Assembly (NCBI GenBank): GCA_027577595.1
Contig: JANBRJ010000058.1
Coordinates: forward strand, 44,538-108,537
Origin: Coemansia sp. RSA 487
Lineage: Eukaryota; Kickxellomycota; Kickxellomycetes; Kickxellales; Kickxellaceae
Reading direction: 5' to 3'
DNA length: 64,000 nt
Shown here: positions 9,995 to 64,000 of the stretch, one piece after another
How the letters are laid out: the number at the start of each line of letters is the position of its first letter
Position numbering within the stretch: the stretch's first letter is position 1
Notes under the pieces: model-generated
What the model saw: the letters and a program-made list of their open reading frames with translations, nothing else
Database searches by the model: none
What the model was told of the DNA's origin: nothing
Made by a program: the position numbers and the translations under genes

Positions 9995-11251
9995 GTTAAT
10001 TACTTGTCTGAAATTTGATCAACAAAGGGCTTTAATAGAGTAGCACGAATGGCTGTAGAGTAGTTAATTAAATGTGGAAAATAGCTTGAGAAAACTCGCG
10101 GAAACGGAGGACAATGTAGGCTGGAGTGCTACTTAAATAGAACTCTTGCACATCCTAATTGTCGTACCTGGCACAAGTAGGTAAATGACAGGCTATATTG
10201 CTACATAAACTGGTGAGAAGATTAAACAAGGTTGCACATTCTTTCGTTGGGAAATGTTAATGCAGTGTTTGTGTACGCTATGGATGTATGCATTGGATCG
10301 ACAAATAGTTTGTTTTGGCTTTTTCATTTGTTTTAGGTTTTCAGACTTTTAAGTTGCATGTTGATTGAAAATGCTTAAAGGTTGCTGACGAAATGATTTT
10401 CAACTGGCAGATTACCATTTTACATTTGTTAGAGGATATTTCCCACTGATATCGGAAATAATGTGTGACAGATGCACCATTTGTTTTGACTTTGTATCCG
10501 TTTCCGTGTCTGCAAGATGTGTGCTAAGACACATATCGCTGTTGTAGATTTACAGGAGAGCAGGATATTTATTCTCAAAGAGTAGACTGTTTACACATGG
10601 AACCAACTGCTACGCTCCGCCCCTTTTATAGCAACTGGGATTGCCATTCGTTGTTTCCTGGTTCGTATGTCCGCAAGAAAGGAAGAAGCAAGCCATGCAT
10701 TAGTTCGGAACTGCTGAAATAGGGTTCTTTACGTGGGAAACAAAGTGCAAATAAACTAGATACATGGGTTGTATCAACAGTAGATACAATGTTATGATCA
10801 GATCAAGACGCCATCAGAATAGCATACATTAATGTTGCGACAGTATACTTTATTTGCTGGTGGAATCTTTGTAGCTGTTAATTTTATTTTTTGCCATTGT
10901 CCTTTCTAGAATTTAGCACAATACACGCATTTTTGGCTAATTGTTATTGATTGCAATAGTTTGATTTACAGATAAAATTTTATATTTAAAAGGTTAATTG
11001 TTGATGATCGCCTATAATTTAAAACTTTTGATGTTGAAGAATATAACCGTGCCTTGTGCAACTAATATTATTCGTTCTAGAAGGACGCAAAAATATGAAT
11101 ATACTTTACACCAAAATATCAATTTATGCCAGCATTTACACGTTTCACCTCGTCTGTAGAGTGTGCATCTTAAAATCTGATAGCGAAAGTCGCCATTATT
11201 TTTATTAGCACTATAATATCGAGCAAGACAAAAGTCAAGAGGAGCTACTTA
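9995..11251. other. Intergenic between LACS2 and LACS3
   Basis: The 1.26-kb AT-rich gap lies between two same-strand LACS genes and must hold the LACS2 promoter and the LACS3 3' end. I found no convincing gene or repeat copy. Confidence 0.5.
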
Positions 11252-13321: not shown

Positions 13322-16092
13322 GGTTGTTTTCTTTTGACGTGTGTTTACCACAAAGTATTAAAGAAACAGTAATTATCGTAGTTTTAATAGCAAAGCTGTG
13401 AGAAATCGTAAAGAATCCACGAAAAAGATAATGGTCGAATGTGTTGGTGTGTTTTTAACAGCCAAAAAAACTGGCCTCATTTTCCATTTTGAAAAAGAGA
13501 AAAAGTTTGCCAAAAGCTTCGTTATTGGGTTGTCAGTTGTGCCCTACTGTAGCGCAATTTGAATACCTGATTGTCTAAATTTCATACTCCACAAACAGGC
13601 TCTTGCTTTCTTTAAAGGCTTCCAAAATGTAAAGAAAAGTCGAAGTTTGCATAGAATCTCTTCAAGTGTCTTTTATGATTTTCCGCAACAGCAGAAAACC
13701 AGCTTTTTGGGGAACACAAAGTGTCTGGTTAGTGGAAAGGGTAAGCGCGCATTTATTGCAGATTTGCATTATACATCTTAAAAAGGTAATAAAGCATGGA
13801 AATCTGCATTCCATTATTTGTTGGAGTTATCTGTCGGTTGGGTGAGCTGTGAAGCACATGGAGAGTATCTGATTTACATCTTTGACAGATCTTGAATTAC
13901 AGCCACAGTCCTGATGATGTCGTTTTGATTCGAAAAGAAGGTATCCTAGAAACATTGTGATTGTACTATCTTTAGTGGCATAAATTAAAATAGGCAACAA
14001 GAAAGGCAAATGTTTACAAAAGCAATCTATGAGTCTTTTTATACAAGTTTCAGCCATAAAAAGAGCGCAAAATATAGACGGCATAATAGACCTTCGTCCG
14101 AAAAAGGTATATAATTGTGTGCGCAGAGGCAGTCTAGCTGGTTCGTATGTTCCTGCAGCCTAATGCATTTGAATGAACCATTATTGTGCATTAATGCAAT
14201 AGGTCAAATAGATAATTGTGGGGGATGGGAGCACCATAAAACGCGTTTTCTGGCCGGGACATCTGATGTTGCATTGCAAAAAACAAAACCACCTGCACCG
14301 TTTCGACCATTTCCAGAAGTAATGAAGTTAGGAAAAAGGGGAAAAGGAGCTTTTATGAGCAGAACATTGGGCTCTGCAAAAATGGATTTTAGCCGATCTC
14401 CAAGTGGAATTTTTGAACGCATTGAAATCTTCATTGTTACACAACATGGCAGGTTCAATCGTCATTTTGAAATTTTGGCTCAGAGCAGCAGATCGCCCAA
14501 ATGCAGAATATACACATGCTAACAATTGGTTTTTCTGATTACAACTTTTTTTACGGATGTGCGAATTAATTTACTATTACAAAAGTGATTTATTGGGAAT
14601 TGTATTGTAGAGAAATTACTATTCTGAGCTTACTGATGTTTATTCTCTGTTATGTGGTATAGACACCAACGATATGCTTTAGAAATTTACAAATTTCGCT
14701 TCATTTATATAAGTTTATATGATCTCTGATTGCAATACCACAAGGTTATTTGTACTTAACCGATTGCTTAAACTGATATATACTAATCTACAGACACTAT
14801 TGCGGGATTAAGAATCAAAAATCCTATGGGCGTTTTCATTTAGGATACCTTTTGGCGCTTTTTGCTTTGTGAGATGTAGATATACAATATACGTGGTAAT
14901 CCCAATTTGCGATTGAAGAGAACAAAACAAGGATTGACGTATAAGCATGCATGTATAAATAACAGACGCATACTTTTTGCCAAATTGCCTGTAAAACGTC
15001 TAAATGAATAGCACTGGGGCTTTTCGAGTTGCTATTTCCCATAGAAAATGGATCTATCAGACATTAATAATTAATACAAATGATGCAGCAAGAGCTGATC
15101 CAAATATGGCAGGGGGATGTAATATTTTCTATTGCGGACTTTCTATGCCCACTTATTCATCCTGTCACAGTGTATTCGGAGACTGCTGGTATATCCAGGA
15201 AATGCACAATAGCTGGGGCGGTGTCGTAATTGGAGACAAGAGTTTTGTTTCCTCCCTATTTTCATAGCACGAATCGGTTATAGTGCCCTGCGTTCCACAG
15301 CAATTATTAAATGTAGTCTATGTAGATCATTAATATCGCTCATTTGAGCTAACAGGGTAGCCTTTGCTCGTACCATACAGAAATGCGTTTCTTTCGGGAT
15401 CGTTGCATGTCCATTATCGCCAACTGGCGCGGTGTTTCCGTGAATTCCACAACAAAAAGGGGGAGATCAGAATGTGCTGCTGTTTTGCATCTCCGATTGG
15501 CGCCATGAAAAGCTGAGCAGAAAAATAGAAAGATCAACCCACCATGCAAAGAGATTGTCAGCATTATTTAACTGACAAATTATTGCGCAGATAGCATATG
15601 AAAATCTATGCACATTATGAGGCGATTCGAGCAATACCCCATGCTCTTTGCCTTTTTTGCCAAAGATCTTCATCGATGGGATCTACCAGTGCAAAGGCAA
15701 GAATAATGACCAGTCCACATATTAAATGGTGCCTTCGTATTCTTCTTGTCTCCAAAAGCGGAAGGTTAGTTGTCTTTTTCCAGAGACAAAGGTGGAAAGA
15801 TGAATTGCGGTCTGCACACTTGTATCTTTCCCAATAAAACGAGTTAAGAATAAAACCAAACCAACCCCCAGAAACGGCTCAGGTTTATCAACTCTCTTTT
15901 TTATGTCTGACATACACCTCTACAAAATAGTAACTTTACTCATTCAATCACTCCGCTATTTTTGTGCCAGTGTTCAGTACTTTTGATCACCACCAGGCCC
16001 GTATCCAGTCTCGTTTTAGATTACTTCCAGCTTGACTTGTTTAAGCAGCACAGCTGGATAATAGCCCTACGAGACAGATTAAAGCTCCAAGC
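13322..16092. other. Intergenic between divergent LACS3 and LACS4
   Basis: This 2.8-kb AT-rich region forms the centre of the inverted duplication. Open frames such as 14115-14522 have no recognisable motif and no paralogue in the window, so I do not call them. It contains both divergent promoters; a TATA-like TATATAA occurs near 14108. Confidence 0.5.
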
Positions 16093-18159
16093 ATGCAGTC
16101 GTACAAGGTACCTAGCTCGCAAGTCCCCGGACACTCTTACATACTCCGTCACCCTGGCTTTAAGGATGGCTCGCAAGGACAGGAGTACAAGGACATTGCC
16201 ACACTCTGGGATCTGTTTCAGCGCGAGGTGAGTGTTTTCGCCAAGCGCGAGTTCCTTGGCGCACGTACGTTTGACCCACTGACTAGCAGGATGGGCGCCT
16301 ACCAGTGGATCACCACCACCGAAGCCAGCGGTATTGTCGAGGACTTTGGCTCTGGGCTGGATCGTGTCTATTCCGAACATGCGCCTGAATGCCCAGCCGC
16401 TACGCCAGACCAGCAGCCGCTTGCCATTTACTCTCTTAACCGCCCCGAGTGGCTGCTTGCCGAGTTTTCTGCCTTTCGTGCGCGCCGCTACACTGTCGGC
16501 ATCAGCGATGCGACTGGCGTCGAGAGCGCCGAGACGACTATCAACAACTCTGAAAGCGCCGTCGTTGTTTGCTCGATGGACAAGATCCCGCGAATGCTCA
16601 ATCGCATTAGGATGACGCCTAGCATCAAGGTTGTTATCTCGATGGACAACCTCGACTGCTCAAGGCCCACAATCTCAACGCAGCCATTTAGCGCGGAGTC
16701 TGTCGCTGAGCTTCGGAGACAGGCAGAGTCGCTTGGCGTCGTGCTTTTGGATATGGCAGATGTAGTTGACATGGGTCGCGAAAAGCCCACGGATGCAAAC
16801 CCGCCAAAGCCTTCGGACATTTGCACAGTGAGCTACACTTCAGGTACACTAGCCGCGCAAAAGGGCGTAATACGCACACACGGTTCCAATGTATTTGCAT
16901 CACGGTCGGCTCATCTATTTGTTCGCCCTGAAAACAGCACCTACATGTCGTTTATTCCTCTGACGCATTGTGCAGACCGCTATGTCATCTATGCGCTTAT
17001 GTTCGAGCACGTTCGCATTGGTTTGTTTTCCGGCGACTTAGCAAATGTTATCGACGACTTTCAGCAACTTCACCCAACAGTATTCTTGGCCGTTCCTATT
17101 TTCCTTAACCGAGTATATGAGAAAGCCACCGCATCGACTATCCACGCTTCTGGAATGGTTGGTGTTATGGCGAGGTACGCATATAACAGCAAACTGCAAA
17201 TATTTAAGAGCGGTGGTGGGACAAAGCATGCATTCTGGGACAAGATCCTATTCAGTAATGTTGCGCAGATATTCGGTGGTCGCGTTCGAACAATATTCTC
17301 TGGCGCTGCTCTACTTAGCCCTGATGTACAGGACTTTTTCCGCATTGCGCTTTCGTGTGATCTGATACAAGGATATGGGCAAACAGAGACATTTGGCTGT
17401 GGCACCCTTCAATTTACGGCCGATACTACAACTGGCCATGCGGGCGTCCCGATGCCAGGAATCGAAATGCGCTTGCGCAGCATCCCTGACATGAACCTTT
17501 CCGCAACTAGCCCGATATGCCCAAAGGGAGAGCTCATGATCCGCGGAAAGTGTCTATTTTCAGGATACTTGAAGCTGCCAGAGAACTCGAAGAATCTTAT
17601 GGACGATGAGGGGTGGATGGCCACCGACGACATAGCTCAGTTCAACGAGGACGGCACTATCAAACTAATTGATCGCATGAAGAACTGCTTCAAGACTGCA
17701 CGCAGATTCTGGGTAGCCTCTGAGTCTTTGGAGGTGGTCTATGCCACACATCCGCTTGTGCACAACATATTTGTTCATGGTTCTTCTAGCGAGCGCGATC
17801 TAATTGCTATTGTATCTCCCGAGCGCGAGCAGTTTTTAGAGTGGGCGCAGAAACACCTCAACATGGAAAGCGACCCTTCAAATAAACAGCTCAGTTATGA
17901 GGATGTTTGCTCGGATAAGGCGGTTTGCAATGCTTTGGTCAATGAGCTTCGGAATTTTGCAATTAAAAACAACATAGAAACGGAGGCATATATTGCCGCA
18001 GTGCACTGCGATCCAACACCATTTGAGCACAGCAGCGGTGGTCTCCTCACATCTACGCTCAAGCTGCGTCGACATATCGCGATAAAGTTTTACAAAAGTA
18101 TACTTGAGCAACTTTTCGCCGAGGTTGACAATAAGGAAGCTCCAGCAATCCCTAAATAG
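16093..18159 (+). CDS. Long-chain acyl-CoA synthetase-like protein, copy 4 (LACS4)
   Basis: This 688-residue paralogue has TSGTLAAQKG at residues 249-258, YGQTE at 428-432, GWMATDD at 507-513, the FKTAR lysine at 534 and a C-terminal LKLRR. The first 797 bases, from the ATG to 16889, match LACS1 (3118 down to 2322) base for base wherever I compared them; divergence then begins abruptly inside the VFAS codons. A second shared tract with LACS1 covers about 17530-17700. Promoters differ completely upstream of the ATG. It converges with RGS2, mirroring LACS2-RGS1. Confidence 0.85.
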   Translation: MQSYKVPSSQVPGHSYILRHPGFKDGSQGQEYKDIATLWDLFQREVSVFAKREFLGARTFDPLTSRMGAYQWITTTEASGIVEDFGSGLDRVYSEHAPECPAATPDQQPLAIYSLNRPEWLLAEFSAFRARRYTVGISDATGVESAETTINNSESAVVVCSMDKIPRMLNRIRMTPSIKVVISMDNLDCSRPTISTQPFSAESVAELRRQAESLGVVLLDMADVVDMGREKPTDANPPKPSDICTVSYTSGTLAAQKGVIRTHGSNVFASRSAHLFVRPENSTYMSFIPLTHCADRYVIYALMFEHVRIGLFSGDLANVIDDFQQLHPTVFLAVPIFLNRVYEKATASTIHASGMVGVMARYAYNSKLQIFKSGGGTKHAFWDKILFSNVAQIFGGRVRTIFSGAALLSPDVQDFFRIALSCDLIQGYGQTETFGCGTLQFTADTTTGHAGVPMPGIEMRLRSIPDMNLSATSPICPKGELMIRGKCLFSGYLKLPENSKNLMDDEGWMATDDIAQFNEDGTIKLIDRMKNCFKTARRFWVASESLEVVYATHPLVHNIFVHGSSSERDLIAIVSPEREQFLEWAQKHLNMESDPSNKQLSYEDVCSDKAVCNALVNELRNFAIKNNIETEAYIAAVHCDPTPFEHSSGGLLTSTLKLRRHIAIKFYKSILEQLFAEVDNKEAPAIPK

Positions 18160-18326: not shown

Positions 18327-20129
18327 CTATTTTCTCTTTGCATATCTTGTGAAAACGTCAAAGTAGAGCATGTTGAGCACCTCGTCTTTGATTTCGTCAA
18401 ATATAGTGAGCGTCAGCTGGCTCCTTCCGAGTCTTTCGCGGATGCGAAGCACCATAGCCGAGGGCAAGCTGACAGCGGTGTACGAGTTTGAGTTGATGAA
18501 AACGCTAAACATAACAACTAGCTTATCCATCGATGCTACAGGGAACGGAGTAGCTTCGTTCAAGTCGTACTGTGGATAGACTGCGCGAGCAGTTTCAAGG
18601 ATGCACACAGTTGGCGGCGTTTGCAAGCGAAGCGTCTTGGAATTAGAGTGGTCGCGGTTGGCAAGCGCCAGGTAGTCAATATCGTTGTCTATCGTGCTTG
18701 TCATTCGGGACATGTATCCAGGGTCTAGCTGGTCAGCGTCCTCGCGCCAAATGTCCTCAGAGCCAAGCGCAATGATTGTCTGCGTCTTGAGCGACTGGTA
18801 CTCGTCAATGAAGGCAGTCATTTCTGAGCAGAAGCACGATGCAGCAAAGTCACAGAAGTATCGGTACTCGTAAGGGTCAGCAAGAACTCCGTTGAATTCG
18901 GCGCGTCTGCCAATATCGGATCCGCCAGCGGCATTGGCAATGACGGCAGCCATAGACTGGCCCGCTGGGTCGGGGTTTGCCAGCGCATCGGAGCCGTGAA
19001 TACGGCTCAAAACTTCGCGTGAGTGGCGGTTTGCACTCCATAGAGGAATAGCCAGTGACACTGTATGCAGGATAATGGCACAGAGCCACGAGAAGAACCA
19101 CCCCGACCACTTCACTGCCAAGTGGAAGAGAGCGGTTTCCCAGATCACTGTCAGCACGATGCACAGGGCGCCTACAATAATCGATACGTAAAGGTCATTT
19201 CTAATACCATAGGCATCCTTCAGTGACCAGCACTTTACAAGCAATATGGGAAGGATGAAAACAACGTAGAATCCTGGGATGATAACCATTGGAAGGAATC
19301 CCCATACTAGTGTGCAGTTGTTGCTCACTGGCCGTAGCGTAAACTGTTTGTTGACTATGTTGATGACCAACGATATAGCAACTGCAGCGAAAATGTGGCC
19401 AAAGATAAATAGTACCAGGGCCTTGTCTGTGGCATAGCGCTGCAGCCGAGTGTACTTCTTTAGCCGCATGTACAGTTTCGTGTCGGTCTCGTCGTCCATG
19501 TGCGCGTTGTTGTGTTCCAGAGAAGATAAGAGATTCATAGGGTTCTTCTTTTCGCTTTTGCTTATAACATTGCGACCGACCACTGCACCGGGGTTGTGGC
19601 TCAGGCGGTTCATTTCTGAATCAAACCCTGTGTTGCTGAATGAACTAGACTGGCTGGCTGAGCGCATCGGACGCCTGTTTTGGTTCAAGTACGCAAGCGT
19701 ATCAGACTGCTGTACCACGCCTTTGAATTCTGGGTTCTTGCTGCTTGCGACCTTGTTTGTAAGAATATGAACGTTGGAAACCACGATGTGTTGGAATGCG
19801 CGGGCGGCAATCGCAGAGTACAAAGCATAGTAGCCAATGTTGCCGAACCACAGCTTCAAGAAACACGGCCACTCTTGCAGTGCAGTGCTGATTGCGCCAA
19901 TGACACCAACAAATATCAGCCCGATTGCTTGCAAGCCCACAAGTGGAACGCTGCGTTGTGCCAAACCCGAGTGCCTGTCCCGCGCTTTAATGATAAACAT
20001 GACAAACGTGACCAGTGCATATATTACATGTAAAATAAAGACTGACAGCAACACGCCAGCTTTGATTTTGTATGGCAAGGAGCCCGGAATCCACCTTCCG
20101 TCTGCATCTACGTTTATGTCTGACGTCAT
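18327..20129 (-). CDS. Seven-transmembrane RGS protein, copy 2 (RGS2)
   Basis: This 600-residue paralogue of RGS1 starts at ATG 20129 (MTSDINVDADG); the longer frame to 20141 begins with TTG and is not preferred. It has the same layout of seven hydrophobic segments, a hydrophilic Ser/Asn-rich loop and a C-terminal RGS domain. The last ~70 residues (VFINSNSYTAVSLPS to RYAKRK) are unchanged from RGS1, while the N-terminal half and the 3/4 loop differ freely. Similarity continues past the stop through the 3' intergenic sequence into the neighbouring LACS, so gene and neighbour were duplicated together. Confidence 0.8.
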   Translation of the reverse strand: MTSDINVDADGRWIPGSLPYKIKAGVLLSVFILHVIYALVTFVMFIIKARDRHSGLAQRSVPLVGLQAIGLIFVGVIGAISTALQEWPCFLKLWFGNIGYYALYSAIAARAFQHIVVSNVHILTNKVASSKNPEFKGVVQQSDTLAYLNQNRRPMRSASQSSSFSNTGFDSEMNRLSHNPGAVVGRNVISKSEKKNPMNLLSSLEHNNAHMDDETDTKLYMRLKKYTRLQRYATDKALVLFIFGHIFAAVAISLVINIVNKQFTLRPVSNNCTLVWGFLPMVIIPGFYVVFILPILLVKCWSLKDAYGIRNDLYVSIIVGALCIVLTVIWETALFHLAVKWSGWFFSWLCAIILHTVSLAIPLWSANRHSREVLSRIHGSDALANPDPAGQSMAAVIANAAGGSDIGRRAEFNGVLADPYEYRYFCDFAASCFCSEMTAFIDEYQSLKTQTIIALGSEDIWREDADQLDPGYMSRMTSTIDNDIDYLALANRDHSNSKTLRLQTPPTVCILETARAVYPQYDLNEATPFPVASMDKLVVMFSVFINSNSYTAVSLPSAMVLRIRERLGRSQLTLTIFDEIKDEVLNMLYFDVFTRYAKRK

Positions 20130-21923
20130 TTGCACAACCAAGCTGTATGTGGGAGATGATTATATGGCGTTGAACAGAGATGTATCAAAATAGGGATGGG
20201 TTAAGGTATAAAGAAACAAAAGGATTAAGCAAGCGTTAGACAGAAAGTAAAACGGAGCAGGAAAACAAAACAAATAATAGTATATTAAGCAGAAAGCAAC
20301 AGCGGCTTTATGAATTTCTCTGTTTAGCTTGTTTCCCAGGTGTTCCTATTTTGCGCCCTTTTTGCTTTCTTAATCATATGTTCAACAACCGAAATATGCC
20401 AGCGAAAATGTTCCGTCTTTTCTTTGCATCCAACACAATGTATTGAGATCGGCTTTTTGCATCTCAATGCACTAGGAATTCATAGTGTGCTTTGCTCACA
20501 CATGAAAGGTCCTTTATAGTGGGGAAAAAGAATATGGGGAGGTTCATATTTGTATTCAATTGGCCAAAATGATAGTGTATGTAAATCGATCCATTTTCGT
20601 ATTATTGGGAGGTCAATAGGAAGAACAGATAAACAAGAATGTGAGGCAAGTTGATGAAAATCTCCCTTTCTGTGCTAGATGGTACGGAGCCGTCGCATCT
20701 TGTACATCCGAATATTTATATGCAACGCTTTATTAAAACTATTTCACACTTGACGTCGCTGAGTGCTGCAAGTTGCTTGACCGCAAAAAGCAATTAGATG
20801 TAAATCTCACTATTTTTTTGGTCCCCATTTTCCAGAAATGCGTCGGACTTTGAGAGGGTGGGGAAAGAGGCACTAGATAATCGGATGTCCAAAGGAACGG
20901 TTCTTTTGCTTTTGCTTTTGCTTTTGCTTTTACTTCCCAGAAATTTATTTTACCAGAAGGAATCAACAAGCCCCCCAACAATCTAGTGAAGTGGCGTAAG
21001 GATATTGAATCAAAGGTTCAGGAAAATTGGGCACAACGATGGCAGTGCATATCGTTTGTGTCCAAAGTTTTGTTTTCGGGGGATAATAAAGGGCAGCTCG
21101 ACCGGCTGTTCTGCCATGTTAGATTCAAAAGCAAACCAGAGCGTGTTGATAATGAGCCAATGCTTCTGAAAAGATGTTGCTTGAATGGCGGGGTGTGTAG
21201 AAGTCTGGTTTCTATCTGTGGTATGGCTTTCCAACCGCCAATGGGCGAACATTCTGTCTGGTGCCAGGATCCTATTTTTCTGGATTCTTTCTATAGATTC
21301 TTCGACACTGGGGCGGAAGGACTTTCAATACAGCCAGACCGTGTAATATGCAGCTGCGATTGGCAGCCACGCAGACCGTGCATGGAATCCTAATATGGGT
21401 TTGTTGACGTCAATATTGGACACCACTGTGGAGCCAGCATTGGAGGTGGTTGATTATTTTAAGGGAATCCTTAACCAGACGCCAAAGCATTGATTCTAGG
21501 GATGAATAGCCCTTCCACTTTGGTGCTATTGCTTTTGATTCAACTAGTCGATTTTGTGGTGTGGCTAATTAAGACAGGGCCATTTGAACCGATTGAGTGC
21601 TATCCAGGCAAAATGAGGCTGCTTTGTATAGCATATTGCTCTGCAAGATGTATTTACTACTTTTTTAGAAATGTCAAATAGCTTTAGCTTGCAGATTGCA
21701 TGATGTTTAGCGTGCCAAAAGGTCTAAGCTTGTACTACTGTTTTTATGCGCACAAACGGGCTGTAGAAAGTTTTGCGGTTTGAAGGTAATTAAAAAATCA
21801 TGTGATATATAGTCTGCTTTTTTTTTTGTGATTCGTATTTTGACACAAGAAAAATAAGCATGGGTAATCTCTTCCCTTGTTTAATTTTTCTTTTTCATTT
21901 TTTTCATTGAACACACTTCAAAA
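20130..21923. other. Intergenic with a short TTTTGC hexamer repeat
   Basis: This is the shared promoter side of divergent RGS2 and the PY-motif gene. A run of about four and a half TTTTGC units lies near 20903-20931. The frame at 20986-21393 (135 residues) begins with GTG and has no recognisable domain, so it is not called. Confidence 0.5.
20903..20931. repeat. TTTTGC hexanucleotide microsatellite
   Basis: About four and a half tandem copies of TTTTGC are visible in noncoding sequence. Confidence 0.8.
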
Positions 21924-38221: not shown

Positions 38222-40882
38222 TCTTGTTTTACATTCAAGCTTGTAGCACAACGTCGAATGCGGGTAACAACGAGTTGCCAAGTACAACTTTGGAAATTCT
38301 GCTCCAGTCAATAAATGGTCTCGTTCAGTCGCAGACAAACTTTATGGAGTATCAGAAGGAGCGGGACAGAAGGCAAGAGGAGCGAGACCAAAGCCTTGCC
38401 AAACAGTTTCAGGATATGCGCGAAGACCAAAAGGCACGCGATGAAAAGCAAGAGGAACGAGACAGGAGGCAAGAGGAGCGTGATGAAAGGCACGAAAGAG
38501 AATTCCGCGAGCTTAAGGAGGTCAACATAGGCATCCAGCAGAGTCTTGGTCGTTTGGGTAGCGCGTTTGAAGCCCAGCCTCAAAGCAACTTTCGAAGCCA
38601 GGTAGGTTTAAACTGTGCTCCATGGTGCTTTCAGCAGTTGTGAGTGCTTTTTTCTCTGCACCTGTTCAAAGCAGCGCAGCTAGACTAGACCAAACTAAAA
38701 CGCCCCAGTTCTTACGTTGCTTCGTTAGGTTTCGATACTGTCGCAGTCTTTTGACCGTACTCCGACGAGAAAAAGAACTGGTTCTGTCCAATTCAGCGCA
38801 GAGCATTTGCAGAGCAGCATAGGTATGTTGGTGCTTTGCGATTTTGCAAAACATCTTTTTTTCGATACAGAGCGTTGGTTGCTACTCTAACGCTAACGCC
38901 GAGCTTGTAAGATGCTGCTTTGTTCTGTTTGTCATGTAGAAAGTACACTGCACAGCCGTCAAACCCCGTCCGGCAGCACCGCCAAGGAACAATACAGGAA
39001 CATTGGTCTGTATCTGAGCCCCAAAACCCAAAAAATTGAGGATACAGAGCAACTACTGGATTTCCATGGGTTTACATTGCCAGACCTTGGCTCGCTGCAC
39101 GACGCCAGTAGCAGGATTAGCCGTATCCAAAGCAGCTTCCAGAAATACTACAGCAAATCCACATTACTGGTAGTAGATGGCGACGGGTTCAATGGTTGTA
39201 AGAAGTTGACAACTGAGCAACATGTCCAGCACGCGATGCACATGCTGTTGAGCGCTATCTCCAGCACTGTCAGCAGCTCCGATGACAGACCCAAGATGAA
39301 ATTCATCGACAAATCAGGAGACCGAATAGACTCCAAATACAAGCCCGATTTTGTGTTTGTTCCTGTGCACTCGGAATCCTCTCAGTGGTCAAACGTAGGA
39401 GTGGTCTGCGAACTCAAGAGCATCAGCAACAGAGATGCCAACGTTCTCAATGGGAAAATTGGGCAATACTTTAACCAGATGTGGATGAAGCAGCCGCGAA
39501 AGCTCTGTATCGGAGTGGTCGCCTCCCGTGGCAAGCTCCACATACTGGTGAATACGCGCGATGGGATCGACTATGCGGTGGTAGGAACACTGCCATTCGT
39601 CAGCCACGAGAGCAAGAGCATCTACCCCAGCAATAGGCATTCGCAGATAACGTTTGGACCGGGTAGTGGCGAGTTGGTCGTGCGCGTACTGACGATGCTT
39701 TTCGGGTTGGACTTTGAGCAGTGCGGACTGATAGTTCCACAGGCTGGAGGAGTGTCGCAAGGGTTTGGTTTGTGCGAAACCATGGTAACTGCAGATCAGG
39801 ATGATACAGCGCTATCTGTTGTTGTTGGCAGCGACATCCAGCAAGCACCGTACCGGATTCGTCTGCCGGGAAATGGCTATCTGGGCGGCCGCGTGGTGTA
39901 CCCAGTGGGCACAACGTCGTGGGTACACAAGGCGGAGGTTGCTATAGCTGGCGAGCGGGAAAGCCATGTACATAGCGCTGTGGTGAAGATTCAGTGGTGC
40001 CGCAGCAAGCGGCCGACAGAGAAGCAGATATACGATTTGCTGCGCGAGGCGGCTATTTCAAACGTGCCAGGCGTCTTTTTCGGCGGTCAGATCGAGACAG
40101 GCGGGACGACGACAGGCACCAGGTGCAATATACTGGCTGTCGAGGACTGTGGCGTCGGGATCAGCCAGTACGCCTGGATTCTTGCCCAACAGCCATCAGT
40201 CAACCATTGGCAGCTGCTGGATATCGCGTGCGGATATATCCACACGATCTATGCGGCGTGGGCAGGGAAAACGACACGGATCCTCCACCGCGACATTTCC
40301 TCGGGAAACCTCATGGTTCGTGACAACCTCGCCATGGTGATCGACTGGGAGTACGCTCTGTTTGTCAATGTCACCAAACAGAGACAGCTCGTAAGCAGCC
40401 ATCCGCTCACGGGAACCTTGGCCTATGCGAGCATGGGAGTTCTAAGCGGAGGAACTATGCGCTCCGCAACAGACGATATTGAATCGCTTTTTTACGTACT
40501 AGCGCACGCCATCGAGGCAGCCCAGCATTCCGACGATGGGCGTAGAAGAGCCCCATAGGACAAAGGGATGCAAAAGCTTTGGAGCGGGTCGACATCGGAG
40601 GATGATCTGCGTCAGGAGAGGAGGCTGTGGTTCGGCTCTAGCGATACATACAAGTCTCGTCTGGGTGAAAGCTGCCCACACCTCTGGTGGAATCTTCTTT
40701 TGTCAATGTACAATATCCTTGACATTAGCAGGCATTCCATGGCCAGTGGTGTTATCCTTAGGACCAGAAGCGTCAAGGAGTATGTGCAGCAGTTGGTTCT
40801 AGCGCTTCAACCAGTCCTGCAAGCTTACGGGGCTGAAGCAAGACACTTTACCCGGCTAGTGGAGTTTGGGCAGTTCGTTTAG
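38222..40882 (+). pseudogene. FunK1-type kinase with nuclease-like domain, interrupted by an in-frame TAG
   Basis: Three coding blocks can be joined in frame: 38222-38601, 38729-38822 and 38940-40882, with introns 38602-38728 (GTAGGT...GTTAG) and 38823-38939 (GTATGT...TGTAG). Block 1 is a strongly charged coiled coil (KERDRRQEERDQ repeats). Block 3 has a PD-(D/E)XK-like motif (KPD at ~39341, CELK at ~39407), then a FunK1 kinase core with HRDIS at 40286, WEYA in the DFG place, and LTGTLAYAS. A TAG at 40556-40558 ends the long frame in the C-lobe, yet the same frame continues to 40882 with sequence resembling the C-lobe of copy 2. Either one nonsense mutation has killed the gene or the C-lobe is lost. 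The true 5' end is unresolved. Confidence 0.65.
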
Positions 40883-41776
40883 CCAAGCGCTTGCAGTTAT
40901 TAGATTAGATTTTCCACCAGCTTTGCGTTTGTTGTAGCATTTTATAGACGTCATATAAATATCAAAAGCAAAGCCTGCTATGTTTGTATATCCATCCAGC
41001 TTTCAAACCATTACTAATGTGCACACTGTGGGGAAAGGTTGAGGAAAACATAAGGCTAGAGCAGTTCTTCGATTGAGTCCATGGCTTGGGTAACAGTCAA
41101 TCGGCACTCGAGGAAGCAGCAGCTAAACCCACGCAAACCAAACGACAGCGATAATGACCCGGCCAGTGCTGCTAGAGGATAGTTACAAAACAGCTAACTG
41201 TCGCACCCTCTCCAAAGCGTGCAATAATGGCAACGGCACTGTTGCTGTTTTTTTTGCGTGTTGTATATTCGCGGTACGGCTCGTTCGACACATGGATGTG
41301 TGGTGGCATTTTGTATCGTGTTCAGTAGCAGCTGGTGGCCGAGACAGCTGTCATCTCTGTTTCTTGCTTGCCGAGTAGCTGAGATTTGAATCTTTGGTAT
41401 TTTACATGGTCTTTGCAGCAGGGTTCGTTTATTTCAGCAACGCGACTTCAAAACACTTCTTATCAAAACGACCATTTTAAACACGCCTCCGTTTCTGGCT
41501 TTAGTGGAAAGGGCTCAGTTGGGATTTGAGAAAGTGCCAAAGCAACACACGAGCTTTAGATGTATCGTTGGATTAAAGCGCTTTTCAGCTCTATTGCCGA
41601 CACCATTGGCATTGTTGATTGCAGCCTGTCTACCAACAAGAAAGATTGGCCGATTCGATAGCACACCTTTGGATTCCCTCTACAAAAACGCCAGCCAGCA
41701 TGACCGTCGTTTCGTCTAGGGTCTGACAGCGTGCGGTTCGACTTTTCGTGTTTGTCTACTTGGTAGCGATTGGATA
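40883..41776. other. Intergenic between FunK1 loci
   Basis: No gene is recognised. Short open frames here lack motifs. Decayed FunK1 sequence upstream of 41777 is possible but I cannot align it. Confidence 0.45.
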
Positions 41777-42133
41777 TTGTCCTCAGCTCCTATCGATGTG
41801 GCTGCTGCTGACAGCCACGAGGCACTCGTTAAATGGCTAGCGGACATGTCGGTGTGCGAGAGAGACAGGCTTGGGTACGACCCGACATTGTACTACAACG
41901 GAGAGGAACATCGCTGGGAAACCAAGGTCTACGACGATAGCACAGATGCACACAAGACATTCGAGCTTGTCTCGTGCATGCGTATTTCTGATCGTGTGTG
42001 TGGTCGGCACATCTGCTGCTTCGACTGCAAGGAGATTAAGCCATCGGGGGATATTGACGAGCATGGCAAGCCAGCGGCGGAACCATGCGGAGTTCTTGTC
42101 AAGAGCGCATGGGTAGTTTGTGTTTGGTTGTAG
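41777..42133 (+). pseudogene. FunK1 fragment, cut at the kinase N-lobe by an LTR-C piece
   Basis: The frame encodes HEALVKWLADMSVCERDRLGYDP, then WETKVYD and CGVLVKSAWV. These match in order the linker and N-lobe of FunK1 copy 2 (LVTLLVHWSFCSFTRLGYD, WEIRCPD and MEVVLKDSW), including the lysine-bearing VxVK/VVLK strand. There is no ATG at the start and no catalytic loop. Coding similarity ends exactly where a family C LTR fragment begins. It is a broken third FunK1 locus between copies 1 and 2. Confidence 0.72.
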
Positions 42134-42216
42134 CAGCTATAAAAGCCATTATCTTATTGAATAAATGAAAGGGGGAACTTCAATTCCGCTTGAAACCCAA
42201 ACTTGAAATTGAAACA
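42134..42216 (+). mobile_element. LTR family C, 3' fragment
   Basis: The segment with TGTAGCAGCTATAAAAGCC and GGGGGAACTTCAATTCC aligns with 45550-45651 and 48560-48651. Seven to eight bases further on, TGTGATAACTATTTGGC (42223) looks like the 5' end of another C copy that soon loses similarity. Confidence 0.6.
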
Positions 42217-42658
42217 CTGGCAGTGTGATAACTATTTGGCTCTGCAATTTCGCTCCCCATCCCCACTATATGCTTATAGAGCTTTTTGATGTCTTTTCTC
42301 CAGAGCAACATTCTTATTTTTACACAGACCATCTTTAAACTCGACAATCGGAACAAACCAGAGCATGGATAGTGCAAAAGCTGCACATCAGCGGAGCCAT
42401 GTGGGAGATGTTTTGCAGACTAGCGACTCGAGCCGAGTCGATTTTTTGTTGACAGCAAATAAACGTAAACAAAAGGGCAAAAATACTATGTTCAGGAGCC
42501 ACGCAGTTATTGCATTCCATGCAATTTCGTTTCCCCGCTTTGCTTCAATTTCAAAATTTACTTTTATTTTTATTTGCTTTTCCATATATTGCTATTTCCC
42601 GCTTGTATTTGGCTTGTATCTGTTGTATTTATTTGACAAGTGACAAAGTTTGCAGGAA
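42217..42658. other. Intergenic upstream of FunK1 copy 2
   Basis: Apart from the short LTR-C 5' piece near 42223, the stretch is AT-rich and holds the promoter of FunK1 copy 2. Confidence 0.5.
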
Positions 42659-45207
42659 ATGGCAGACACCGGCAAAAACCAGCCCAGGAAGGGCCGGAAC
42701 CCTCCCAAAAATAGGCGCAAGACCAATATACACCAAGTGCAAACTGGAGGAAACGCAGATGCAGAGTGTATTTCGCCTCCAAGGAAAAGACAAAAGAACA
42801 ACAATCCCCAGACACCAAACAGTAAGTACCCTGTATTGAACATATTTCTGTTCGGGGTTCTTATATAAACACATTGAGACATTCTATTGATACAATTGTC
42901 ACTATTTGCATACTCAGCTGCCATTGTATAGGGCAAAAACAGAACGAGTTGCCAGAAGGCACAGCCACATCAACACCCTGTGTCATAAATAGAAAGGGTA
43001 AAGGCACGATCGATAACACACACACAAGCATGAAGGAGATCATGGACGAGCGTAGGCATGAGGCAGAGTATATCGCAAAACACGCTGTCAGAAAGGACGT
43101 GGACAGCCTCTTTTCGCTTGTTGAGCCAAAGAAAACGGCAAAGACCATCGTAGATCCGATAGTCGAAGCGACGCTGACCACCATCAACAATGGATTCAGT
43201 GCACTCTCTGGAAAAAGCCTTGATGCTGTCATCGGCAAGGATGAGTTGAAAAAGTACGGAGACTCGTTTGATCTGGACAGGGCAGTTGAGTCCACGTTTC
43301 GGCTGAGCAAGCTAAACGAGGAGCTGTTTCGGGGAGTGAGCGAGGCGGATATGTATCCGCTGTTCAGAGACTTTGTCATGCTGGTGGCACACCATGTAAA
43401 AGCCGGCGCGGAAAGATTCATCGCCGAGCGTAGCGTCAAGCCGAAGGGAAAGCGCAAGAAGAGCTCTGGTGCAATAGAACCGGTTCTTATCCTCCCGTAC
43501 AACGGTGCCGACTTCAAGCCGGAGGGTAGTGACGACAGAACAAAAATCGACGGTGCGCTGGCGCTTTGCAGACTATCATCCCCGATCGAGCCGCAAGGCA
43601 ACCCCAACTACAAGGACATGTTTGCAATCGGTGAGCTCAAGCGGCAGGAAAGGGACTCACTGCAAGCGTTTACACAGCTGGTCGAGTACACGCGGAATAT
43701 TTATGCAAACCAGGACCACCGGCGCTTTGCCTGGGGGCTCACGATGTGCGGCACCAAAGTCAGGGGCTGCCTCTTCCACCACGACGGTGTTCGAGCAACG
43801 TCTACAATGGACTTTGCAAGCCACGGCGGGAGGGAAAAGCTTGTGACACTTCTTGTACATTGGTCGTTTTGCAGCTTCACTCGGCTCGGGTACGACACGA
43901 ACATGACGCGGCTCAGGGAAGAGAACGCGTGGGAGATCCGCTGCCCCGATCACGACCACGACGGCAAACGCAATAGCTTTACATCATATGTCACCACAAG
44001 AACGATAGTGAACGCATCGTCGTTGTTCGGCAGGCACACGCGCTGCTACATAGCAAGGCGCAAGGACGATACAAGCGGCATGGAGGTGGTCTTAAAGGAC
44101 TCTTGGTCCTTGCCGCGTGACTTGAAGAAGAAAAGCGCAATCTCGACAGTCCCTAACGAGGCGCGCAATCTGCAGCTGATCAAGGAGAAGTTTGCTGGCG
44201 AAAACCTGAACTTTAGCTACCCCCAGGTTGTCACCAGCAGCAGAGCAAAACTTAGCGTTGGCGGCAAGTACATCATAGACGATACGTTGGCAATCTACGA
44301 ATACGATGACGGCGATGAGGAGCAAATGTATCGTGTGCGCAGCCTTATTGTCACGACGCCGGTTGGCGGTTTCATAAAGCGTGTGGAACACCAAGGTGAG
44401 CTGGTTCTGGTTCTCTCCGACGCAATGGAATGCCACAACGCCATCCTTGAGAAGTGCGGCTTGCTTCACCGGGACATATCGGTGAACAACATCCTTGTCA
44501 TCCGCAATGACGGTGATGACTCTTTGCGCCGGCCAGTGAAGGGGCTGCTGATAGACTACGACCACGCGATTTCAGTGGATCAGGATTCCACTGGCAACGG
44601 AACAAGATCGGGAACGCTCCCGTACATGAGCATCCACAACCTGGAAGGAGCTCCCGGAAAGCGATCTGCTCTTGACGACTGGGAATCGCTGCTCTACTTG
44701 ATATGCTGGCTCGGGACATTCGGCATCAACAGCAAAGATCGTGACAACATCAACAAGGAAAATACAGCTGAGATAGAAAAATGGCGACATGGGACAATGC
44801 AGGACATTGCAAAATGTAAGCGCAATCAGATGGACAGCATAACCAACTTCAATAGGCTTATCCTGGCCGGATTCCAGGAAGAGTACAATGTACTTAAGCT
44901 CTTGGCCACTAAAATTTACATGGCACTATTCCAGCACGACGGATGCAAAGGAGCCTACTTCGATACGGAGGATATAGTGGCTACAGACTCGTTTACTCTG
45001 GCATTTGCTGATATGCTGAACGAACCACAAGGTGATCAATCTTCCAGAAAACAGCCCAAGTCCGATCCTCTTGTTGTTCGCAAAGAATATGAAAAGGAAA
45101 TTGTGGACGATCTTTTGAAGGCTATTCGAGCTGCCGCAGCAGCATCTGAGGATTTCTTTTTGCAAAAAGCTATAGCACAGGGCAACGAAACAGCTCCAAA
45201 CCAGTAG
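42659..45207 (+). CDS. FunK1-type protein kinase with PD-(D/E)XK-like N-terminal domain (copy 2)
   Basis: Exon 1 is 42659-42821, the intron 42822-42931 (GTAAGT...TATAG, 110 bp) and exon 2 42932-45207, giving 812 residues. This model gives an ATG start; the longest single open frame begins with a TTG inside the intron. The first 54 residues are very basic (RKGRNPPKNRRK, PPRKRQKNN), a likely nuclear signal. A nuclease-like core follows, with D261 in KIDGAL and GELK at 288-291. The kinase region has VVLK (~447), HRDIS at 567-571, the paired N574, DYD at 596-598 in place of DFG, and SGTLPYMS. FunK1 kinases are fungal-specific, and the nuclease-kinase pairing recalls Crinkler-type effectors. It appears intact. 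Confidence 0.82.
42822..42931 (+). other. Intron of FunK1 copy 2
   Basis: The 110-bp intron has a GTAAGT donor and a TATAG acceptor. Of the three nearby AG acceptors, only this one keeps the frame (A|GG codon). Confidence 0.78.
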
Positions 45208-45327
45208 ACATTTTGACACTATCCTTATCCAAACAGTACTTTATAAAGCAAAAACAAATGTATAAAGAGAAAAGGAACCAGAATCTAAACGGACTACTTA
45301 CTTGGCACATAACCGGCTCCAAAAGGG

Positions 45328-45440
45328 CTAGCGCAGCCTTTCATTCTGGCCCTCGCGACGGAAGAATGACTTGTGCTTCTTCTTGCGGCGGGTGTCGGGT
45401 TCTTCCTCTGCAGCATGACGTTTCTTCATATACTCGACCT
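45328..45440 (-). pseudogene. C-terminal gene fragment, very basic, cut by an LTR
   Basis: The reverse strand reads YRKVEYMKKRHAAEEEP, then RRKKKHKSFFRREGQ to a TAG stop at 45330-45328. Such a Lys/Arg-rich end resembles nucleolar or ribosome-biogenesis proteins, but I do not recognise the family. The open frame meets the family C LTR at 45441, and I find no continuation beyond it. It may be a truncated gene end or chance coding potential. Confidence 0.35.
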
Positions 45441-61882: not shown

Positions 61883-62142
61883 TGTGACGGGTTTACCATG
61901 GATCCAGGATAAAATAACACAGAGTATTTATTTGATATCTTGTTGCTCAAACTAGATAAGAAAAAGAAAAGAAAGAAATCCCTTGCCTTCCTTCAGAAAG
62001 CAATGATCCACGGGCAATGCTGTCCTTGTATGTAGCAGGGGGCCGTTACATGTAGTGGAATATTTCATTGTTAGTGTTTAGTGGCTGTGCAAATCCATGA
62101 CAATGGGCTTGGCTTGCATACGGCCATTACACTAGCGTGACA
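61883..62142 (+). mobile_element. Solo LTR of family B, copy 5
   Basis: The 260-bp unit starts TGTGACGGG and ends GCGTGACA, with CCATT at 61878-61882 and 62143-62147. It is nearly the same as copy 7 at 62880-63136, which implies recent activity of one source. Confidence 0.88.
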
Positions 62143-62156
62143 CCATTTCTGTGGAA

Positions 62157-62354
62157 TTATAGTATCTTCGTTGGATTAGCTATAATTGCAGCTACTTTTT
62201 TATTTGCTGCATCTTGAGCCTTCTCTTTTGCAGCATCTTTATTAGAAAGTCCACTATAGTGTGTATGCTTTTGTAGCTCATCATTATTTGGGTTAATGAA
62301 CTGCACATCAACCTCATGAATCTTTGAAGATGAAGATGAAGATGAAAATGTCAT
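62157..62354 (-). CDS. Small protein of unknown function, paralogue 1
   Basis: A 65-residue product reads from ATG 62354. An upstream in-frame ATG at 62405 lies only about 25 bases from the TATA box, so it is probably ahead of or at the transcript start and I prefer the inner start. After a poly-Ser N-terminus the protein shares VQFINPNNDEL, THYSGLS and DAAK with paralogue 2, and it ends in a Lys/Ala-rich helix. No signal peptide, TM or known domain is visible. The pair arose by the local tandem duplication and has diverged in coding sequence more than in its promoter. Confidence 0.6.
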   Translation of the reverse strand: MTFSSSSSSSKIHEVDVQFINPNNDELQKHTHYSGLSNKDAAKEKAQDAANKKVAAIIANPTKIL

Positions 62355-62426
62355 TGTAAATATTATATGAAGGTTGTGATATAATTGAGAAGGAAACAAA
62401 AGCATGCAGACGATTCTATTATGCTT

Positions 62427-62447
62427 TTATATAACATTGGCCAATTG
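62427..62447 (-). promoter_or_regulatory. CCAAT and TATA boxes of small gene 1
   Basis: On the reverse strand GGCCAATG is followed at once by TTATATAAAAG, about 75 bases before the inner ATG at 62354. The same arrangement is kept at the second copy. Confidence 0.65.
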
Positions 62448-62617
62448 ATTGCATATGCTTGGTAAATTGTGTGATATTAATAAATCTATATTCTAAATAG
62501 CATTTCCTTTTCTGTTTCCTCCCGACATGTTGTTGTAGTGCATACTATATCATGTGGTCTTTATTTATGGTATCAAGAAACTGCGAATATTTCTGGCCTA
62601 TATTAAGCATGTCAGGT

Positions 62618-62694
62618 TGTGACGGACTTACCATGAACCCAGGATAAAACAACACAGAGTAATTTATATATCTCATTATTTTCAAACTAGATAA
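62618..62694 (+). mobile_element. LTR family B, truncated copy 6
   Basis: The first ~77 bases of LTR-B (TGTGACGGACTTACCATGAACC) are present at the same site as copy 8 at 63851, then the match ends at AACTAGATAA. Because both units share the insertion, it predates the segmental duplication. Confidence 0.75.
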
Positions 62695-62742
62695 ATGTCA
62701 TACCAGCTTTGAATACAATAACAAGAATCATGACACCATTAA

Positions 62743-63203
62743 TGTTATACTATAGGCGCTAGGGCTGTTACGTAGGAGTTTAATATATATTTAAAACAGA
62801 AACTAAGAATGACATGAAGTTGTATAAGCATTAGGCTATTTTATAGCCGTACGCCATCAAAGATCATAACAACGTTCAGTGTGACGGGTTTACCATGGAC
62901 CCAGGATAAAATAACACAGAGTATTTATTTGATATCTTGTTGCTCAAACTAGATAAGAAAAAGAAAAGAAAGAAATCCCTTGCCTTCCTTCAGAAAGCAA
63001 TGATCCACGGGCAATGCTGCCCTTGTATGTAGCAGGAGGCCGTTACATGTGGAATATTTCATTGTTAGTGTTTAGTGGCTGTGCAAACCCACTGTCATGG
63101 GTTTGCCTTGCATACGGCCATCACACAAGCGTGACATTCAGGAATCACCTATCAAGAATATGATATCATATTTCTGTGATAGATACTCAAAACTGGCCTG
63201 ACA
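62743..63203 (-). repeat. Element D, copy 3, split by LTR-B copy 7
   Basis: In reverse orientation it runs from TGTCAGGCCAG (63203) to CTATAGTATAACA (62743), with TATAAAATAGCC inside. LTR-B copy 7 interrupts it close to the position where copy 1 interrupts the first D element. Confidence 0.65.
62880..63136 (+). mobile_element. Solo LTR of family B, copy 7
   Basis: The 257-bp unit from TGTGACGGG to AAGCGTGACA is flanked by TTCAG at 62875-62879 and 63137-63141. Confidence 0.88.
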
Positions 63204-63248
63204 GTAGGAATAGTTAAAATTCTGTTTGCAAAACAATCTCACCTGGAA

Positions 63249-63382
63249 TGTGATACAAAATATAATTACCGGATGTATGTTTACCACTGTTTAACAGCAT
63301 GCCATGTCATCGCAGGTAGATAGACCTTTTCTCCTCTTGGTTTCTTCTTCAGTTTTAAGAATATACTTTTATTCATACTAAA
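63249..63382 (+). repeat. Element E, copy 3, with target duplication and empty-site evidence
   Basis: The 134-bp copy from TGTGATACAAA to CATACTAAA is flanked by TGGAA at 63244-63248 and 63383-63387. The matching place in unit 1 (near 61868-61876) has a single TGGAA and no insertion, so the ends are exact. Confidence 0.9.
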
Positions 63383-63407
63383 TGGAATGGATGCCATTGC
63401 CATGGAA

Positions 63408-63587
63408 TTATATTTTATTATTTGCCTTAGCAAGAATTGCATGTATTTTTCCTGTTACTATAGACTTACCCTCCTTTTTTGCAGCATCATTGTCAGAAAG
63501 TGAACTATAGTGTGTATAGATTTCTTTCTGTCCAGTAATTGGGTTAGTGAATTGAAATTCAAACTTTTTAACATATGGAGATGACAT
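63408..63587 (-). CDS. Small protein of unknown function, paralogue 2
   Basis: A 59-residue product reads from the inner ATG at 63587; the outer ATG at 63638 is again close to the TATA box. It aligns with paralogue 1 around FQFTNP, YTHYSSLSDNDAAK and a C-terminal Lys/Ala-rich helix, and lacks the poly-Ser start. No known domain is visible. Conservation of THYSxLSxxDAAK while the rest changes suggests selection on the protein. Confidence 0.6.
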   Translation of the reverse strand: MSSPYVKKFEFQFTNPITGQKEIYTHYSSLSDNDAAKKEGKSIVTGKIHAILAKANNKI

Positions 63588-63657
63588 TGTGTATATTGTA
63601 TGAAGGTTGTGATATAATTGAGGAGGAAACAAAAGCATACAGACGATTCTATTATGC

Positions 63658-63679
63658 CTTTATATAACATTGGCCAATT
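63658..63679 (-). promoter_or_regulatory. CCAAT and TATA boxes of small gene 2
   Basis: On the reverse strand GGCCAATG is followed by TTATATAAAGG, at the same distance from the start as in copy 1. Confidence 0.65.
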
Positions 63680-63850
63680 AATTGTATATGCTTGGTAAAT
63701 TGTGTGATATTAATAAATCTATATTTTAAATAGCATTTCCTTTTCTGTTTCCTCCCGACATGTTGTTGTAGTGCATACTATATCATGTGGTCTTTATTTA
63801 TGGTATCAAGAAACTGCGAATATTTCTGGCCTATATTAAGCATGTCAGGT

Positions 63851-64000
63851 TGTGACGGACTTACCATGGACCCAGGATAAAATAACACAGAGTAATAATT
63901 CGATATCTCGTTTCTCAGACTATATATAAGAAGAAAAATCCTTGCCTTCCTCAGAAGGCAATGACCCTCGGGAAACGCTGTCCTTATATGTAACAGGGGG
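63851..64000 (+). mobile_element. LTR family B, copy 8, cut by the window edge
   Basis: The sequence starts TGTGACGGACTTACCATGG and runs to the window end inside CCTTATATGTAACAGGGGG. It could be a solo LTR or the first LTR of a full element beyond the window. Confidence 0.8.

Follow-up and report, generated by a model that had tools for sequence, protein, structure and literature searches.

Predicted PD-(D/E)XK nuclease domains fused to FunK1 kinases in two genes of Coemansia sp. RSA 487

Two FunK1 genes, copy 1 (38344-40558) and copy 2 (42659-45207), lie in a 64,000-nucleotide stretch of the Coemansia sp. RSA 487 genome (contig JANBRJ010000058.1, positions 44,538 to 108,537), here called the window. 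In both, a PD-(D/E)XK nuclease-fold region precedes the FunK1 kinase. Both the sequence and the predicted fold bear out this nuclease-kinase fusion, and its activity and role are inferred. We report the architecture, predicted fold, motif conservation, and purifying selection of the fused genes and the expansion of their family. By analogy of architecture, the nearest characterized system is the SPOK family of Podospora (coiled coil, PD-(D/E)XK killer, and kinase antidote) rather than Crinkler, and both genes may belong to a large, uncharacterized killer-and-antidote gene set.

Predicted nuclease fold and FunK1 kinase

Feature coordinates are collected in Table 1. An initial annotation of the window had noted a restriction-endonuclease-like signature before the kinase at both loci, and the motifs were found there, KPD and CELK in copy 1 and D261 and GELK in copy 2. 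Both genes are FunK1 members that exceed the PF17667 cut-off of 24.1 bits (copy 1, 74.8 bits; copy 2, 200.3 bits), and HRDIS carries the FunK1 active-site Ser described in PMC3203195. The basic first exon assigned to copy 2, resembling a nuclear localization signal (NLS), was likewise confirmed: the first 55 residues hold 13 K/R against 3 D/E and include PPRKRQK. The related protein P0004 has an N-terminus of the same kind. The spliced copy 2 product is 812 aa in length and lacks internal stops. Copy 1 has an exon of charged QEERD repeats, and its exon limits are uncertain from 38601 to about 38940. The number of QEERD units in copy 1 and its relatives ranges from 0 to 8 across seven proteins counted (P0020, 3; P0021, 1; P0022, 0; P0023, 1; P0025, 1; P0026, 8; P0031, 1). 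The in-frame TAG of copy 1 is passed in alignment by longer relatives in other strains, such as P0021. EV179_004224 (P0020) of Coemansia sp. RSA 487 aligns with 98% of the copy 1 query at 100% identity.

The two nuclease regions were modeled separately using AlphaFold (AF2). Predicted local distance difference test (pLDDT) and predicted template modeling (pTM) scores were 75.9 and 0.76 for copy 1 (38999-39871), and 82.7 and 0.83 for copy 2 (43024-44049). Both models contain the alpha-beta-beta-beta-alpha-beta core of the PD-(D/E)XK fold, formed by H73-92, E100-104, E118-122, E135-139, H154-164, and E170-176 in copy 1 and by H107-137, E154-159, E177-183, E199-206, H209-229, and E236-242 in copy 2. 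The residues E, D, ExK, and Q fall at the expected places, with D where strand 2 begins and ExK within strand 3 (D117, E138, and K140 of the copy 1 model; D176, E204, and K206 of the copy 2 model). Structural neighbors of both models are mainly restriction enzymes, NucC, and mitoribosome chains. Neither modeling nor fold searches returned an unrelated fold, the outcome that would have spoken against a PD-(D/E)XK reading. The regions almost certainly have a PD-(D/E)XK fold, and intact copies are probably catalytically competent nucleases.

The nuclease domains of type IIG/IIL and type I restriction enzymes (BpuSI, DrdV, HsdR) resemble the two regions in predicted fold and D-ExK placement. They differ in context, as no methylase, helicase, or specificity domain is among the Pfam hits here and a kinase is present instead. 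Searches for a sequence match of the nuclease regions to type IIG/IIL or type I restriction nucleases found none. In VIA searches, both models have mitoribosome chains as their top match, as does copy 1 in Foldseek. The matched mammalian chains 5 and s are, we presume, mL37/mL65. These are non-enzymatic ribosomal proteins, whereas the catalytic residues are mostly retained in FunK1 nuclease regions. A common origin of the mitoribosomal proteins and the fungal nuclease-kinases is a possible hypothesis from the shared fold matches.

Conservation was counted in copy 2 and 127 homologs, for which 120 of 142 matches were listed and the other 22 left unused. As far as named, these homologs come from Coemansia and Linderina; Dikarya FunK1 proteins fall outside the sample. 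Among rows with a residue at the site, D is kept in 105/115, E in 101/119, K in 109/119, and Q in 110/123. The genome survey took in the window plus 40 fetched regions and did not extend to all 79 PF17667 matches. Matches to the two nuclease profiles gave 44 rows. Of the 35 that span the D, E, and K sites, 29 have D, E/D, and K intact. The expected conservation of D, E, and K among FunK1 homologs is therefore borne out, with exceptions. Three loci outside the 35 rows (L026, L029, L030) also have altered motif residues, and in P0033 (Dipsacomyces) of the copy-1 family the motif Asp and Lys are gone and HRDIS is kept.

Alignment A6 used 16 of 22 copy-1-type rows, after six were dropped as fragments, near-copies, or low scorers; alignment A7 used 12/22. 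In the 16 diverged regions of A6, whose identity to copy 1 falls as low as 16%, no columns are invariant except motif P, E, and K and a Gly next to the conserved Gln, a conservation beyond chance. The motif D is substituted in 3/16 rows, and L039, among the dropped rows, has K instead of motif E. When profiles of the copy-1 and copy-2 subfamilies were compared using hhalign, D, ExK, and Q were in register (E 7e-5, probability 62.6%); a previous run at lower depth had scored E 8e-4 and probability 24.7%. The place aligned with the copy 1 Gln is H, W, A, or D in other subfamilies. Ratios of nonsynonymous to synonymous substitution (dN/dS) for the copy 2 nuclease region were 0.17, 0.22, and 0.26 against its paralogs on C74, C105, and C82, and 0.25 for the copy 1 region against C74. 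The nuclease region is under purifying selection.

In the 17.8 Mb genome, a count by frame and exon gives 79 PF17667 matches, 68 of them over the cut-off; the weakest are perhaps ordinary kinases. Of 12 copy-2-type genes, all 12 give a PF17667 match from the nuclease fragment alone (best E 1.8e-20). The copy 2 fragment covers positions 19-133 of 387, and in P0014 and P0013 the motif Asp falls on position 3. These matches indicate that the PF17667 "Fungal protein kinase" model begins inside the nuclease domain, so the fusion belongs to the sampled family and not to two odd genes. It is present through most FunK1 loci surveyed. The fusion proposed by the initial annotation thus stands in both loci but is not peculiar to the larger two. 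The PF17667 model could be split, with its early positions assigned to PD-(D/E)XK. If it hides part of a nuclease, counts of FunK1 "kinases" also count putative nucleases.

FunK1 is described as a fungal kinase of unknown function, linked to multicellularity and expanded in dimorphic pathogens (PMC3203195, PMC5852033, PMC6001611). By contrast, the first positions of the PF17667 profile are assigned here to a nuclease. No mention of a nuclease domain in FunK1 occurs in the available text of PMC3203195, PMC3591445, PMC4595289, PMC5852033, or PMC6001611, and where available FunK1 papers use the word endonuclease, it does not concern FunK1. The sole over-cut-off DUF6826 (PF20713) match in the genome and a FunK1 match lie about 0.8 kb apart on one strand (C7:320752-320973 and C7:319750-319986), and DUF6826 may thus be a second name for the FunK1 nuclease region.

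Residue loss, SPOK likeness, and rival explanations

Nuclease and kinase residues are both kept in 87 of the 128 proteins. The nuclease residues are changed and the kinase is intact in 21, the reverse holds in 1, both are changed in 2, and 17 have gaps at a site. The 21-to-1 split gives p 1e-5 in a two-sided sign test that ignores relatedness of rows. A tree was built from 124 rows, leaving out 4/128 of ≤450 aa; 11 of the 124 have gaps at the sites, and 113 were scored. On this tree there are 10 changes of nuclease state, 9 of them forced by well-supported branches. In the 110 rows scored for both domains, there were 10 nuclease-state changes versus 3 for the kinase. Structural columns remain conserved in the homolog set that varies at nuclease residues. 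Among 36 rows from this genome, 28 have both intact, 5 have a changed nuclease with kinase Asp residues intact, 1 has a changed kinase and intact nuclease (broken into two frames), 1 has both changed, and 1 lacks the nuclease sites. The imbalance of 21 to 1 favors an antidote-like kinase, and from this pattern we infer killer/antidote proteins with antidote-only derivatives.

SPOK3 consists of an N-terminal coiled coil with a variable repeat, PD-(D/E)XK with QxxxY, a cysteine cluster, and a kinase, and HsdR is the best HHpred hit of its nuclease domain (PMC6660238). The SPOK3 nuclease lysine is required for killing and not for resistance, while the kinase is required for resistance (PMC6660238). 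A SPOK1 form without resistance works via DNA damage (PMC9972908). Spok2 of strain A is an antidote-only version (PMC6660238), and antidote-only versions have been discussed in Fusarium. Like Spok1-4 of Podospora and the FuSpoks of Fusarium, both copies encode a single protein with PD-(D/E)XK and a C-terminal kinase. HsdR is also among the structural neighbors of the nuclease regions here. The QEERD repeat of the copy 1 type, putatively a coiled coil, may correspond to the charged or coiled-coil SPOK repeat of variable length, and the copy 2 type has a QxxxY-like motif. Multiple copies, pseudogenes, and nuclease-dead copies occur in both sets. Copy 2 differs in having a basic exon in place of the repeat. 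Homology to SPOK, killing, and drive are putative for these genes.

The initial annotation had pointed to Crinkler-type systems. According to PMC5289972, restriction endonuclease (REase)-kinase pairs make up about one-sixth of CR (Crinkler-RHS) C-termini, and their toxicity is proposed to come from the nuclease; the paper also discusses CRN8. Association of a nuclease with a kinase is called a widespread architecture in PMC12693581, citing Zhang et al. 2016. Joining PD-(D/E)XK to a protein kinase is thus a feature shared with a known CR class. SPOK, not Crinkler, is the nearest characterized system. The Crinkler header (PF20147) is absent from the Pfam hits of four window open reading frames (ORFs) and ten annotated proteins, a scan that did not take in the first exons of copies 1 and 2. 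A genome-wide PF20147 search gave no match, but its control likewise gave none.

In our preferred reading, the products of both genes are intracellular; an N-terminal module, either the charged repeat helix (copy 1) or the basic NLS-like exon (copy 2), comes first, and the nuclease-fold domain and the FunK1 kinase follow. The nuclease would damage DNA in the nucleus, and a kinase, either its own or that of a related copy, would neutralize this. Copies that lack the nuclease residues and retain the fold and kinase would be antidote-only genes. Toxin/antidote action of the SPOK type is the best-supported mechanism for both genes and has an about even chance of being correct. The case for the kinase as restraint or antidote is just as evenly balanced, and selfish drive, rather than defense or allorecognition, is a tentative suggestion. 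Several points weigh against the killer/antidote reading of the loss pattern: the kinase may have a function of its own, sampling was biased to FunK1-like proteins, and the rows in the loss counts are related. The SPOK cluster C-x3-C-x13-C-x5-H-x7-H before the kinase was found as an exact pattern in 0/141 proteins, and a looser cysteine pattern in 7/141, none of the copy-1 type.

A role as defense or allorecognition effectors is somewhat unlikely. The nuclease would be aimed at nuclear nucleic acid that is foreign or non-self, such as that of transposons, viruses, or incompatible nuclei, with the kinase sensing or switching it, as proposed for REase-kinase CR effectors. The large duplicating family, the variable number of charged repeat units, and the share of REase-kinase pairs among CR C-termini (PMC5289972) are consistent with such a role. 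The scanned proteins contain no NACHT, TPR, or WD sensor domains and no Crinkler header, however, and the loss asymmetry speaks for an antidote-like kinase. A pseudo-nuclease serving the kinase as a nucleic-acid- or protein-binding platform, as in mitoribosomal mL37/mL65, is unlikely. Its support comes from the mitoribosome fold matches, the description of mL65/mL37 as repurposed endonucleases (PMC8998825), and the change of D/E/K in 24/128 homologs. A binding platform needs no joint retention of D, E, and K, so their retention in most genomic matches, also among copies at 16-23% identity, counts against it. A secreted Crinkler-type effector active in another organism is very improbable. In its favor are the REase-kinase C-termini known among CR proteins (PMC5289972) and the basic, NLS-like exon of copy 2. 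The N-termini inspected by eye are charged and not hydrophobic, though, and no PF20147 header was seen within the scan described above. Coemansia is a saprobe, which also counts against secretion into a host.

A wider proposal, that FunK1 "kinases" in general are antidote halves of nuclease-kinase killers, is speculative and rather doubtful. Kickxellales would then hold tens of SPOK-type killer/antidote and antidote-only genes, and FunK1 expansion would reflect an arms race of selfish elements. If true, SPOK-type genes would exist far outside the ascomycetes where SPOK is known, and the puzzle of FunK1 expansion would be explained. An early-diverging fungal lineage would then share the nuclease-kinase killer/antidote design and offer many naturally occurring nuclease-changed copies for study. 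If a nuclease is hidden in PF17667, FunK1 function becomes testable by existing SPOK assays.

Block duplication and neighboring genes

Table 1. Features of the two FunK1 loci and the intervening relic (window coordinates)
Feature	Coordinates	Strand	Evidence
Copy 1 charged repeat exon (QEERD units), coiled-coil-like	38344..38541	+	Translation; 40/66 residues charged
Copy 1 ORF with nuclease region and kinase	38897-40558	+	Translation
Copy 1 PD-(D/E)XK region (predicted)	38999..39862	+	AF2 model of 38999-39871, fold search
Copy 1 KPD motif	39341..39349	+	Sequence, alignment A6
Copy 1 CELK (ExK) motif	39407..39418	+	Sequence, alignment A6
Copy 1 Gln position conserved 3' of ExK	39464..39466	+	Sequence, alignment A6
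Copy 1 FunK1 kinase part	39863..40555	+	PF17667 E 7e-21; APH E 3e-5
Copy 1 kinase catalytic Asp of HRDIS	40292-40294	+	Sequence
Copy 1 in-frame TAG	40556-40558	+	Frame open on to 40879
Relic of copy-2-type gene	41720..42130	+	PF17667 positions 67-168, E 1.2e-8
Copy 2 exon 1, basic, NLS-like PPRKRQK	42659..42821	+	Translation
Copy 2 intron, predicted GT-AG	42822..42931	+	Sequence
Copy 2 exon 2, nuclease region and kinase	42932..45207	+	Translation, Pfam scan
Copy 2 PD-(D/E)XK region (predicted)	43264..43983	+	AF2 model of 43024-44049, fold search
Copy 2 Glu of helix A (exon 2 E137)	43342..43344	+	Kept 91/101 homologs covering the site
Copy 2 motif Asp (exon 2 D206, protein D261)	43549..43551	+	Kept 105/115
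Copy 2 GELK, E234 and K236 of exon 2	43630..43641	+	E 101/119, K 109/119
Copy 2 Gln of QxxxY motif, Q248 of exon 2	43675..43677	+	Kept 110/123
Copy 2 FunK1 kinase part	44029..45003	+	PF17667 E 5.4e-59
Copy 2 kinase catalytic Asp of HRDIS	44473-44475	+	Sequence

The block 38453-45438, comprising copy 1, the relic, and copy 2, is duplicated at C74:59625-66625 (L009) with 92.8% identity. At the left junction, C82 and C105 have sequence in common that is not in the window or C74. Past 45438, C74, C82, and C105 stay homologous together and the window alone diverges (all junctions judged by eye). Since the three continue jointly where the window breaks off, the copies on the window, C74, C82, and C105 look like segmental duplications rather than a transposon unit. 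A 3.1-kb mobile unit (42343-45438), suggested by BLAST end-sharing of C82 and C105, is not borne out at the junctions. The gene model of P0001 (Coemansia sp. RSA 986) opens with a piece matching relic 41846-42121 and continues into the copy 2 gene with exon 1 skipped, possibly an annotation matter.

Beside the copy-2-type gene, window 45207-45438 encodes on the minus strand a truncated C-terminal piece of a lysine-rich protein. This protein is also found at L009:8016-8363 and L010:4506-4931, and these two versions have no Pfam match. Four related ORFs of about 700 aa are located at 1043-3157, 7922-10018, 11252-13357, and 16045-18159 (78-89% DNA identity), and the three that were scanned are AMP-binding enzymes. 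Placed among them, ORFs 5795-7753 and 18330-20159 are receptor-RGS-like; both end in an RGS domain, and one has a class-C seven-transmembrane (7TM) match below the cut-off. Pairs of direct repeats of 157-322 bp occur at window 61883-63997, near the contig end.

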